A stretch of DNA of 64,000 bases, from NCBI GenBank assembly GCA_026396875.1, contig JAPLVY010000007.1:17490-81489 (forward strand), written 5' to 3'. The translations under genes were made by a program, and so were the position numbers. Positions 45,067 to 49,914 of the stretch are shown here, piece by piece (the first letter of the stretch is position 1; every line of letters starts with the position of its first letter). Below the pieces are notes generated by a model that was not told where the DNA came from, did no database searches, and saw nothing but the letters and a program-made list of their open reading frames with translations. The DNA is from Candidatus Falkowiibacteriota bacterium (GTDB lineage Bacteria; Patescibacteriota; Patescibacteriia; Patescibacteriales; UBA12465).

Positions 45067-47124
45067 TTATTTCCTCGTCTTTGGTACTTGATAATATTTT
45101 AAGAGATAATCGATAATCCCCTGACCCAAAGGAACCGCTGTACTCTCGGCGTATTGTAACCCCTTAGGATTATCGATCTTGGTCAAAAGAACAAACTTTG
45201 GATCTTCAATCGGCGCCACGCCAACAAAAGTATGAATAAAATCACTCTTACTATAAGAACCCTTGGAGGCAACTTGAGCGGTACCAGTTTTGCCACCAAT
45301 ATAATAACCGCTGACCGCTGCTTTCTTAGAATGCCCTTTCTCGACAACGTTTGTCAACATGGCCAAAACTGTATTAGCAGTATGTTCGGAAACTACCTGG
45401 CGAATAGGTTTTGGTTTAATTTCTATCTTTTCACCGCCGGGTTTAGAAATTTCCTTGACCAGGTAAGGCTTCATCATTAGTCCTTTATTAGCCAAAGCCA
45501 TATAAGAAACAACCATCTGCAAAGGGGTAACCGAAATTCCCTGGCCAAACGAGGCGGTGGAATAGTCAATCTCCGGAACTCTTCTTTGTAAAAGATTGGC
45601 GATAGTTCCTGGGACTTCTGACTCGAGCTCAATGCCAAACTTTTTACCAAAACCAAAATTTTTCACATAATCCAGAAAGGTCTTTGCCCCAGTTTGACGC
45701 ATCACAAAGATTGCCCCGGTATTTAGGGAGTTTTCCAAAACAAAATTCATATCCACAACTCCATGAGCACCTTTTGTTGAATAATCTGAATTACTAATCG
45801 GCTTAGGCCAACCGGTGATAAACATTTGCCCGGGATCATTATAGGTCGAGTTGGGAGAAACTTTTCCCTGATCAATTCCGGCAGCCATTGTAATTGTTTT
45901 CATCACTGAACCAGGTTCATACTGAGAAAATATCGTTGGATTGTTGAAATATTGAATATCTTCTACTGACTTATAGTCATTTGGGTCAAAAGCTGGGTAA
46001 GAACACATCGCGATAATCGCACCGGTCTTCGGATCGCCAACAATAACGCTGCCGCCGGTAGCATTATACTTCTCGATTGCCGCTTTTAATTGGTCACAAA
46101 CTGCAAATTCGACATTACGATCGATTGTTAATACCAAGTCACTGCCATCTTCCGGTTTAACATATTCCTGATCATTAACAATTAACATGTTTCTTCCTAC
46201 GCCCTTCTCGGCCCTCAGGAAACCAAAAGTACCAGTTAACTCAGAATTAAAAAACCCCTCTAAGCCATAATGGCCGACACCATCGGTGTCCACAAAGCCA
46301 GCCAGGTGAGCCGCATTATCACCTTCGGGATAATATCGATACTTAAAAAATTCATAACCTAGGCCTTTGATATCCAGAGGACGATTATTGTCGGCGGTGT
46401 TAACTATCTGTTCGTGGAGGATATCTAGGTCTTGTGCTCTGACCGAAGAAGTGGTTGAGATAAGCCCCGGAGTAGAAGTAGACTCTGAATAAATTGCTGC
46501 ATAGAGTTTGAGTAAATCTTCGGTGGACATTTTTTTCACCAACGGTTCATAAGGATCACCGGGCTTGTCTAAATGTTTCAAATAGCCAGCGATGATTTCT
46601 TCTTTCCTGGAATCAGCAGAGAAAATTGGGTCGCTAGCAATTGTGGCAATTTTGGCGGTCTTCTCCTCTGGCTTCAAAGTTTCATCGTCTTGAATATCTT
46701 GAATGGCTCTCAGTTTTTTCTTTTCATTTTCTTGAGCTAAGCGGCTATTTTCCTTTTCCATCAATGGCTTATCAAAGAAATTATACAATTTTTCCGCCAT
46801 TGCCCGAGGGTCGGCAACATCTTTTGGGACTGCATAAAGTAGGGCAAAGTTTTTATTAGTAGCTAGTGGAAATAATAAACCGTCGCTGTCTCCCGGCATT
46901 ACACTACTAAAAAATATCTGTCCCCTTTCCGGGCTCAATTTACTAAAAATCTGCTGCTGACCAGCCGCTAGTGCGGTATAATAATCGCTGTCTTTCACCT
47001 GTAACAAAAAAAGGCGGCCGATTAAAACCCCAATTAATAAAAAAACCACCACCACCACTAAGCGGAGGCGGTTGTTCGAATCTTTCTTGTCTAGACAGGC
47101 ATATTTTTCAGAATCACGCCACAT
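45067..47124 (-). CDS. ftsI: Penicillin-binding protein 2 / FtsI
   Basis: EPGSVMKTITMAAGID (SxxK), ENSLNTGAIFVM (SxN), GGKTGTAQV (KTG); N-terminal TM. Confidence 0.95.
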   Translation of the reverse strand: MWRDSEKYACLDKKDSNNRLRLVVVVVFLLIGVLIGRLFLLQVKDSDYYTALAAGQQQIFSKLSPERGQIFFSSVMPGDSDGLLFPLATNKNFALLYAVPKDVADPRAMAEKLYNFFDKPLMEKENSRLAQENEKKKLRAIQDIQDDETLKPEEKTAKIATIASDPIFSADSRKEEIIAGYLKHLDKPGDPYEPLVKKMSTEDLLKLYAAIYSESTSTPGLISTTSSVRAQDLDILHEQIVNTADNNRPLDIKGLGYEFFKYRYYPEGDNAAHLAGFVDTDGVGHYGLEGFFNSELTGTFGFLRAEKGVGRNMLIVNDQEYVKPEDGSDLVLTIDRNVEFAVCDQLKAAIEKYNATGGSVIVGDPKTGAIIAMCSYPAFDPNDYKSVEDIQYFNNPTIFSQYEPGSVMKTITMAAGIDQGKVSPNSTYNDPGQMFITGWPKPISNSDYSTKGAHGVVDMNFVLENSLNTGAIFVMRQTGAKTFLDYVKNFGFGKKFGIELESEVPGTIANLLQRRVPEIDYSTASFGQGISVTPLQMVVSYMALANKGLMMKPYLVKEISKPGGEKIEIKPKPIRQVVSEHTANTVLAMLTNVVEKGHSKKAAVSGYYIGGKTGTAQVASKGSYSKSDFIHTFVGVAPIEDPKFVLLTKIDNPKGLQYAESTAVPLGQGIIDYLLKYYQVPKTRK

Positions 47125-47155: not shown

Positions 47156-47506
47156 TTATTTCATCGCCAGTGCCGGAGCTTTAATCGTCAAATAATCAAC
47201 ATTACCCACCGCCACCATATCCAAACTTTGAACTCTCGCCTTCAAGCTGCCGTAGGACTGGAGTGCGAGAATCTTATTTTCATAAGCCCGCTTATCTTCA
47301 TCTAAGTTTTTGGCTTGATTTTTTAAGCCCTGCATCACAACCCCCTTAACTACTAGATCATTAGCACTAATTAGATAATAAAAACCGACAAGAACGAAAA
47401 CAGAAAACAAAACAATATTCACCGAATGAAAAAAGTTGGAAGGATTGTCGCCTCTCCTGGACTGGTGATATCTCTTCTTGTCTTTATTTTTTTGCAACGA
47501 TTTCAT
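47156..47506 (-). CDS. FtsL-like division protein
   Basis: Small single-TM protein with coiled-coil-like region between rsmH and ftsI. Confidence 0.6.
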   Translation of the reverse strand: MKSLQKNKDKKRYHQSRRGDNPSNFFHSVNIVLFSVFVLVGFYYLISANDLVVKGVVMQGLKNQAKNLDEDKRAYENKILALQSYGSLKARVQSLDMVAVGNVDYLTIKAPALAMK

Positions 47507-47525: not shown

Positions 47526-48452
47526 TTATACTCTGATTGCTGCTCTCAATTTTGAGCTACGAGCTCGTGGATTTTCTTCACTTTCTTGCTCGCTTGGTAT
47601 TAATGGTTTTTTGGTAATAATTTTCAAAGTCTTCTTGTGCCCGCAAACACAACGGAGAAAACTTGATGGGCAGATACAGTCCGTACTTTCCTGGCGAAAA
47701 TAATTCTTAACAATCCGATCCTCCCCGCTGTGAAAAGAAACGAAAATTACTCGTGCCCCTGGCTTTAAAGCTTGCGGCAAAGCCGCCAAAGCATTTTCTA
47801 AATTTTTAAATTCGCCATTAGTAGCAATCCGCAGAGCCTGGAAAATTCTCGTTGCAGGATTGGTGCGATGATGCCCCTTCAATATTGGCGCCAGAGCTTC
47901 CAACAAGTCGCCGGTGGTTTTGATAACTTTTTTCTTGCGATATTCAACAATTAACTTAGCGGCAAAATATGCTTTTGGCTCATCTCCGTAAAGACGAAAG
48001 ATGTCGGTTAGCTCGTGTAAGCTGTAGTAACGAAGAATGTTTTCAGTCTCTTCGTTTTCCGCACTATCCTGGCTGAAAGACATCGATAGTGGGCGATCAC
48101 CTTGAAAAGAAAAACCTCTGTCCTGGTCATCCAGTTGTGCCGAAGAAAGTCCGAGATCAAATACGGCGCCGTCAAATGGCCCATGTTTTTCAGCAATCTC
48201 TGCCAACTTACCAAAATTATCATGAATCAAGCTAATATTATTTACCCCCTCAATCTTGGCTCGTTCTTTGGCGTTATCTATCGCCAAAAGATCTAAGTCG
48301 GTAGAAAATACTCTTCCACTTGGACCAACCGCCTTAGCGATTGCTAATGAATAATTAGCACCGCCAAGAGTACCGTCAAAAATATTTTCACCTTTCTTTG
48401 GTTGTAAATATTTCAAAACCTCTGGCAACATTACGGGAATATGGGAATACAT
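47526..48452 (-). CDS. rsmH: 16S rRNA (cytosine1402-N4)-methyltransferase
   Basis: HIPVMLPEVLKYLQPKKGENIFDGTLGGANYSLAI, FDLGLSSAQLDDQDRGFSF, SFHSGEDRIVKNYFR. Confidence 0.96.
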   Translation of the reverse strand: MYSHIPVMLPEVLKYLQPKKGENIFDGTLGGANYSLAIAKAVGPSGRVFSTDLDLLAIDNAKERAKIEGVNNISLIHDNFGKLAEIAEKHGPFDGAVFDLGLSSAQLDDQDRGFSFQGDRPLSMSFSQDSAENEETENILRYYSLHELTDIFRLYGDEPKAYFAAKLIVEYRKKKVIKTTGDLLEALAPILKGHHRTNPATRIFQALRIATNGEFKNLENALAALPQALKPGARVIFVSFHSGEDRIVKNYFRQESTDCICPSSFLRCVCGHKKTLKIITKKPLIPSEQESEENPRARSSKLRAAIRV

Positions 48453-48455
48453 AGA

Positions 48456-48887
48456 TTAGATGCCCAAGTCACCGAGTTCTTCGGCAATGGCATTACTATT
48501 CTTTTCAGCGCTTGCTTTATAATTGTTCCACTGCCTCTCATCCCAGATTTCTAAACGGTTATACAGACCAGCGATAATCGTATTTTTCCTTAGGCCAGCG
48601 AACACTCTTAAATATTCAGGCAAATTGATTCTGCCCTGATTGTCAAAATCAACGTCCATCGCTCCGGCCAACATGTGGCGAGCAAAGGCTCGCGCCTTCG
48701 CCTGACTGATTGGCAAGCTAGCAAATTTTTGAGCAATGACCTCAAACTGTTCTTTGGAATACAAAAATAAACAGTTGTCCAAACCCTTGGTAACGACTGC
48801 TCCCTTCTTTAGGATGGCGCGGAATTTAGCCGGAATAGCTAGTCTTCCTTTGTCGTCCAGGTTGTGATTGTATTCTCCGATGAACAT
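48456..48887 (-). CDS. mraZ: Transcriptional regulator MraZ
   Basis: GEYNHNLDDKGRLAIPAKFR, DNQGRINLPEYLRVFAGL. Confidence 0.96.
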   Translation of the reverse strand: MFIGEYNHNLDDKGRLAIPAKFRAILKKGAVVTKGLDNCLFLYSKEQFEVIAQKFASLPISQAKARAFARHMLAGAMDVDFDNQGRINLPEYLRVFAGLRKNTIIAGLYNRLEIWDERQWNNYKASAEKNSNAIAEELGDLGI

Positions 48888-48901: not shown

Positions 48902-48959
48902 TTCACCACTTATCACCACAATTCACCTTTCGAATGTAATTATACCCCACCAGCCCCCA
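48902..48959 (-). promoter_or_regulatory. MraZ-box-like operator array
   Basis: Minus strand TGGGG-GCTGG-TGGGG (48945-48959), then AGGTGA/TGGTGA/TGGTGA at 10-nt spacing (48902-48928). Confidence 0.65.
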
Positions 48960-48968
48960 AGACGTCAA
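48939..48968 (-). promoter_or_regulatory. mraZ sigma70-type promoter
   Basis: TTGACG - 18 nt - TATAAT. Confidence 0.75.
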
Positions 48969-49061
48969 CAAAAAGATACCTGTGGAAAACTATCGACGAT
49001 ACAAAAACAAAAAAACACCCCTAAAGGGGTGTAGCGGCAAAATTATATGATATTAATAATG

Positions 49062-49490
49062 CTAATTTATTTTTGTCAGGTCTCCATCCAAAATAGTTTC
49101 CACCATCGCTTTAATTTCGTCGGTGTAAGAAACTTCTTCGGGAATCGAATTAAGAAGGAAGGTCTTTTTACCGTTAACATAGGCGAAGCCAATTTCCATT
49201 AGAGTATTGCCACCGACATAATTATTAACGCCATTTTTATCAAAATTTAAAACCAGGATGGCATCACTGCGGCAAATCGCTTCGTAGTACCACTTAATAT
49301 AACCTTGAGATACTTTAGCTAAGTAATGCTCTCCGCCACTGATCTGGCTCCAAAGTTCTTTTTTCTCACCGCGGACAAAGGCCTCGTAATCGGGATGAAC
49401 AATCCCTTCGTGTCCCAGGGCAGATAGTTTGCTTCGATACTCAAGCATCTTTTCTTTAAAGGCGGAGCTACCGCAAATAACGATTTTCAT
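49062..49490 (-). CDS. Nucleoside 2-deoxyribosyltransferase-like protein (copy B)
   Basis: MKIVICGSSAFKEKM...; DAILVLNFDKNGVNNYVGGNTLMEIGFAYVNGK; start chosen at internal ATG after the upstream gene. Confidence 0.6.
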   Translation of the reverse strand: MKIVICGSSAFKEKMLEYRSKLSALGHEGIVHPDYEAFVRGEKKELWSQISGGEHYLAKVSQGYIKWYYEAICRSDAILVLNFDKNGVNNYVGGNTLMEIGFAYVNGKKTFLLNSIPEEVSYTDEIKAMVETILDGDLTKIN

Positions 49491-49494
49491 AATT

Positions 49495-49914
49495 TTAACG
49501 CTTGATTTTTTGCAAATCACCATCAAGAACAATCGGCTGCAAGGCCCTCATCTCGTCGCTATAGCTCATGTCTGGCACCTCGTGAAGAAAATAGAGATCC
49601 TTCCTTAGTACATGAGCGAAGGCGGCCTCTAAAAAAGAATTGCCACCGACATAATTATTAACGCCATTTTTGTCGTAGTTGGCAACTAAGACTGCGTCTG
49701 CCTCAAAAATCTCCTGATAATAGGCGCGAATGAGGTCGTGATTAATCTTGTTTTCTGTTGACTCGGCCCGAGACTCCTGACCCCATTCATGGCTAGCATA
49801 CTTCTCGGTGTTATGAGGCACAATCACCTGATTAAAACCGAGAGCATTGAGCTGACTCTTTAAAGTCAACATCTCGAAAGAAAATTTCATACTGCCACAA
49901 ATGACAATTTTCAT
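49495..49914 (-). CDS. Nucleoside 2-deoxyribosyltransferase-like protein (copy A)
   Basis: MKIVICGSMKFSFEM...; DAVLVANYDKNGVNNYVGGNSFLEAAFAHVLRK; paralogue of adjacent ORF. Confidence 0.6.
   Translation of the reverse strand: MKIVICGSMKFSFEMLTLKSQLNALGFNQVIVPHNTEKYASHEWGQESRAESTENKINHDLIRAYYQEIFEADAVLVANYDKNGVNNYVGGNSFLEAAFAHVLRKDLYFLHEVPDMSYSDEMRALQPIVLDGDLQKIKR

Follow-up and report, generated by a model that had tools for sequence, protein, structure and literature searches.

The array of short direct repeats at the mraZ promoter is very probably an autoregulatory operator at which bound MraZ would block RNA polymerase, as judged from the arrangement of the repeats in the window (the whole stretch of 64,000 nucleotides that was analysed) and from their conservation in related bacteria. 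All of the elements lie on the minus strand. The promoter is near-consensus, with 11 of 12 promoter positions matched, and consists of a -35 element TTGACG (48968-48963), whose TTGAC is kept in relatives, a spacer of 18 bp, and a -10 element TATAAT (48944-48939). Two boxes occupy the spacer: the degenerate box A1 (TTGGGG, 48955-48960) lies 10 bp upstream of box A2 (GTGGGG, 48945-48950), which adjoins the -10 element. Downstream follow the degenerate box B1 (AAGGTGA, 48923-48929), 21 bp from A2, and boxes B2 (GTGGTGA, 48913-48919) and B3 (GTGGTGA, 48903-48909), the last of which is located about 15 nt 5' of the mraZ start codon (ATG, 48887-48885). A preliminary description of this DNA had reported TGGGG-N5-TGGGG between the -35 and -10 elements and three GGTGA repeats at exact 10-nt spacing between the -10 element and the start codon. 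Both are present, the former as TGGGG (48959-48955), GCTGG, and TGGGG (48949-48945), and the latter at 48927-48923, 48917-48913, and 48907-48903. The same description had regarded them as a two-part array with two kinds of block. When the repeats are written in register, as TTGGGG, GTGGGG, AAGGTGA, GTGGTGA, and GTGGTGA (A1, A2, B1, B2, and B3, respectively), the TGGGG and GGTGA motifs become one; that division was therefore given up, and all five boxes are copies of a single repeat unit, GTGG(K)GA. They are direct repeats with a 10-bp period, oriented with the gene, and share one helical face, and the slot that the ladder skips, in the 21-bp gap from A2 to B1, is taken by the -10 element.

The pattern GGTGA-N5-GGTGA-N5-GGTGA has one match in the 64-kb window and none in 100 shuffles, and the B block alone exceeds chance. 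The spacer pair was rejected as significant alone, since TGGG-N6-TGGG has one match in the window against 1.28 expected by chance, and the reality of the A block therefore rests on conservation. An intrinsic terminator (ACACCCCTTTAGGGGTGT followed by a T run, 49032-49015, minus strand) ends the upstream gene, so that the mraZ promoter stands alone and insulated. Upstream of mraZ there are also two adjoining, similar small ORFs on the minus strand (49062-49487 and 49495-49914; MKIVICGS...NYDKNGVNNYVGGN...), which have no Pfam match at 1e-3 and are a tandem duplicate.

Upstream regions of mraZ from relatives at the level of genus, family, order, and class, together with those of a named collection, gave 140 sequences after duplicate removal. 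When scored with a gapless profile spanning the -35 element to B3 and trained on members of the scored set, 125 of these 140 exceeded every one of 420 dinucleotide shuffles as well as the antisense strand. A minority of relatives, such as L045 and L064, carry no recognizable array in the stretch examined. With regard to information content, GTGG at A2 and B2 is the most constant part, at least equal to the promoter hexamers, and is followed by B3 and B1. A2 is conserved as strongly as B2, its GTGG being near-invariant in 109 aligned upstreams. At the A1 slot only GGG is conserved in relatives, and TGGGG is kept in the three genomes of the genus. Conservation thus makes A2, B1, B2, and B3 solid and A1 weak, and A1 may be only a G-rich spacer. 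Further weak boxes occur in many relatives, and not in the window, at 21 bp (over the -35 element) and 31 bp upstream of A2. Upstream of mraZ in L028 and L011, the -35 hexamer itself lies inside a box (AAAGTGGTTGAC), so that the ladder runs through the whole promoter there. Variants found in relatives at matching slots include GTGGGGAA, GTGGTGAA, GTGGGGAT, and GTGGATAA; GTGGGGA and GTGGTGA are mixed at equal slots, and AAAGTGGKGAA is frequent.

The downstream offsets of GTGG from A2 cluster at 20-21, 30-31, 40-41, and 62-64, and the phase coherence at 10.5 bp is 0.93 for the order and 0.90 for the phylum against null maxima of 0.35 and 0.43, respectively. Of 65 upstreams sampled separately across the phylum, 95% have at least one 10-bp GTGG pair within the last 300 nt (1% when shuffled and 0% in antisense), and a box adjoins the -10 element in 37. 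Upstreams inside a clade are not independent, but this sample covers dozens of families. The row is kept through most of the phylum, and ordinary bacteria have it in a simpler form. The conservation upstream of orthologous mraZ genes on which the preliminary description had let its reading depend is thus seen at both depths. The distance from the array to the ATG ranges from 27 to >600 nt in relatives while the geometry of promoter and array is fixed, which indicates that the array belongs to the promoter and not to translation.

The presumed ligand of the array is encoded directly downstream of it. MraZ of the window (143 aa, 48456-48887, minus strand) is composed of two PF02381 repeats and possesses both DXXXR motifs, with R15 and R86. 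It matches solved MraZ structures over its full length and keeps D11, K13, and R15 together with R86, which are invariant in the MraZ proteins of E. coli, Bacillus, Staphylococcus, and Mesomycoplasma. The window belongs to a Candidatus Falkowbacteria-like Patescibacteria genome, and its MraZ is 97% identical to that of the nearest named relative. The gene heads a dcw-type operon on the minus strand, in which it is followed by rsmH (mraW; 47526-48452; PF01795), a 116-aa ORF (47156-47506) that is ftsL-like by position only and has no Pfam match, and an FtsI/PBP2-type transpeptidase gene (45067-47124; PF00905). In the organism's own genome (767 kb, 10 contigs), for which the genome-wide statements rest on pattern searches, the only exact two-box array and the only exact fusion of A2 with the -10 element (GTGGNGTATAAT, no mismatch) are those at mraZ. 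A wider MraZ regulon was considered and rejected, as the two-box search with one mismatch returned one further site, which was not above the reversed control; MraZ probably regulates nothing beyond its own operon in this genome.

In E. coli, the MraZ operator consists of TGGGN repeats with 5-nt spacers upstream of mraZ, where MraZ autoregulates. The K-12 sequence (AGTGGGAAATTGTGGGGCAAAGTGGGAATAAGGGGTGAGG) shares the unit, the strand, the 10-bp period, and the gene with the window. In contrast to the window, which has boxes in the spacer, all of the E. coli boxes lie downstream of the -10 element, and the window B boxes read TGGTG instead of TGGGN. As in E. coli, all boxes appear to lie downstream of the -10 element (read by eye) in Proteus, Legionella, Aeromonas, B. 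velezensis, and M. hyorhinis, the last having boxes only after its -10 element, unlike the window. The E. coli-specific form, with at least three copies of strict TGGGN, is not demanded of the wider family and does not occur here, because only A1 and A2 read TGGGG. The TGGGN identity given in the preliminary description accordingly holds for these two, whereas three of the five boxes fit an AAAGTG[G/T]-type unit better, and this broader unit is present, with GTGG in register in B2 and B3. Since relatives mix GTGGGGA and GTGGTGA and the sites of Mollicutes are AAAGTG[T/G], strict TGGGN is too narrow, and the site is not wrong.

MraZ of M. genitalium is a repressor that complements only in cis, and the AAAGTG[T/G] repeat motif is found in that organism only at the mraZ promoter (PMC8475190). 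This protein is the best parallel for the mechanism proposed in the window. The Mollicutes unit is matched well by B3 (TAAGTGGTGA), although the CPR boxes are more G-rich (GTGGGGAA, GTGGTGAA, and GTGGATAA). In Mycoplasmopsis cynos, GTGG sits on the -10 element and is followed by a box at +21, an arrangement shared with Patescibacteria. Listeria and Enterococcus likewise have a box adjoining the -10 element and the next at +21, but differ from the window in having more boxes upstream of A2, fewer downstream, and a -10 element about 2 bp closer to the box. In Nonomuraea, two boxes 10 bp apart lie between the -35 and -10 elements. These upstreams rule out a CPR-only architecture; the layout shared by Listeria, Enterococcus, and M. 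cynos is widespread and not a CPR invention, and the earlier proposal of a CPR version of the operator was consequently too narrow. Several outgroup upstreams were taken from records that carry a phage or plasmid label but are evidently chromosomal. Four phage-labelled records, MT835696, OR850213, OR847551, and OR846610 (L282, L283, L285, and L286, respectively), carry mraZ with host-like upstreams and are probably host chromosome contamination.

A probable mechanism of repression can be proposed for this arrangement. A1 and A2 lie in the spacer between the -35 and -10 elements, the -10 element occupies the next slot, and B1-B3 cover the first ~30 transcribed bases. One or more MraZ rings may contact consecutive boxes and bridge the -10 element, so that A2 and B1-B3 could be occupied together. 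MraZ on the array would then prevent the binding of RNA polymerase or the opening of the promoter and thereby limit expression of its own operon, comprising mraZ, rsmH, the ftsL-like ORF, and the transpeptidase gene. Occlusion of RNA polymerase had been attributed to one block; this block does lie in the expected footprint, but both blocks are inside it. The array with its phase, orientation, conservation, and uniqueness in the genome is observed, as are the MraZ protein and the operon; we infer from them that MraZ binds, that it represses and does not activate, and that a ring makes contact on both sides of the -10 element.

The main alternative to repression is that MraZ binds the array and activates the promoter, for example through DNA bending or recruitment of RNA polymerase, and it is considered unlikely. 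Boxes do extend upstream of the -35 element in many relatives, and overexpression of M. gallisepticum MraZ came with more FtsZ (cited in PMC8475190), so that activation is possible in some lineages. However, the window promoter is already near-consensus (TTGACG, 18 bp, and TATAAT), with boxes that cover its spacer and its start site; moreover, deletion of mraZ in M. genitalium raised dcw expression, and E. coli MraZ is called a repressor (PMC8475190). A clearly smaller probability is assigned to the reading in which GTGG before the -10 element is a core-promoter element read by sigma and only the downstream repeats form the operator. The fixed distance at which GTGG adjoins the -10 element would suit such a role, as would the GTGG-like/-10 near matches in the genome, which number 10 at ≤1 mismatch, compared with 5 in the reversed control. 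On the other hand, the exact fusion is confined to mraZ in this genome, the window promoter has no TG extended -10 element, and A2 has the unit of the B boxes, with which it keeps helical phase.

It is very improbable that the GGTGA repeats serve translation from the mRNA leader, as Shine-Dalgarno sequences or as signals of another kind. The canonical anti-SD complement does include GGTGA, and the position of B3 in the window relative to the ATG would be compatible with such a signal, but A2 is outside the transcript, and B3 lies anywhere from 10 to >600 nt from the ATG in relatives while its distance to the -10 element is fixed, for which reason a Shine-Dalgarno role was rejected. DnaA sites linking replication to division are a scarcely credible explanation of the boxes, although TTATCCACA is strongly enriched in the mraZ upstreams of relatives, 34 of the 140 containing 43 sites in total against 0.3 expected, and the window has a TTTTCCACA at 48981-48989. 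The TGTGGATAA sites downstream of A2 are in register with the boxes (coherence 0.93, n = 27), and their sequence corresponds to a common box variant (GTGGATAA). The window contains no TTATCCACA, and thus no DnaA box cluster beyond the single TTTTCCACA, and its own genome has no excess of TTATCCACA over the control. The sites downstream of A2 are therefore assigned to the MraZ-box register, which does not account for those upstream of it in relatives. The latter (TGTGGATAA/TTATCCACA, DnaA-box-like) lie ~100-170 bp before A2, e.g., in L029, L056, L068, L086, and L095; the DnaA-box-like sites upstream of mraZ in relatives are mostly in sense orientation, and some fall in terminator loops (L082, L086, and L087). 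The TTTTCCACA of the window, just upstream of the -35 element, is kept in L036 and absent in L037, the two other genomes of the genus. Just as implausible is a G-quadruplex. In S. aureus, a G4 motif with reporter effects is reported downstream of the promoter of mraZ (PMC11796246), and the S. aureus upstream read in the present analysis has repeats of a like kind. However, a canonical G4 (four runs of at least three G) is absent from the window promoter, which has two such runs only, and was found in none of the 140 upstreams at order level and in one of the 65 at phylum level.

Outside the window's own family, the array is found 180-600 nt from mraZ in several families, and the leader in between contains conserved modules. 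About a dozen sister families have a long structured mraZ leader driven by the array promoter, examples being those of L072, L021, L007, L003, and L047, and its modules comprise a hairpin around GCCAAGAYAATnnGCGC, a GCATGGGGATGC element, a long hairpin AAGGCnAAGAAGGGGTCTGAT...CTTAA, sometimes in two copies, and A-rich linkers; loops would be expected, e.g., in L072, at GCCAAGAYAAU and AAGAAGGGG. The long hairpin, TTAAGGC-AAGAAGGGGTCTGAT...ATCAGnCTYCTC...CTTAA, was aligned from 37 sequences with 17 pairs, in which 93% of cells are paired, and shows 57 double-change cells against 19 in shuffles. In the short hairpin, whose stem closes GCCAAGAYAATnnGCGC, four of six pairs have 8-13 compensatory changes. 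A covariance model of the long hairpin matched 37 of 117 relatives, and all matches with a listed mraZ on the contig lie just upstream of mraZ in the sense orientation, weaker antisense echoes aside. The covariance-model search found no long hairpin in the window's own family, and in a class-wide sample it was present in 9 of 381, all of them in the same order. Comparison with Rfam gave nothing credible at E ≤ 1. UpsM of R. sphaeroides was called the first extended dcw 5' UTR by its authors (PMC5089854) and is the sole long dcw leader found described in the literature. The leader RNA is a candidate for a new class of RNA in front of the division operon, and the natural assumption would be that it regulates this operon in cis.

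A broader scheme can be put forward tentatively, with somewhat more doubt than belief. In Patescibacteria, and in some Bacillota and some Mollicutes, the promoter of mraZ may be built into a ladder of MraZ boxes, unlike that of E. coli with its downstream boxes, with the -35 and -10 elements in slots on one helical face, such that one MraZ ring would hold both sides of the -10 element and control its opening; sister families in the order of the window may add the undescribed structured leader RNA as a second layer of control. A literature search on MraZ of Patescibacteria found no paper on its regulation and no binding or expression data, and the array provides a testable candidate site for the control of division genes in a phylum whose gene regulation has hardly been studied by experiment. 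The MraZ box is broadened from TGGGN to GTGG(K)GA, with the rule that boxes are spaced by 10 bp, or by 20-21 bp across the -10 element, on one helical face. With this spacing rule, MraZ operators can be recognized from their sequence alone, and the rule also suggests a way in which a MraZ ring could grip the promoter from both sides.
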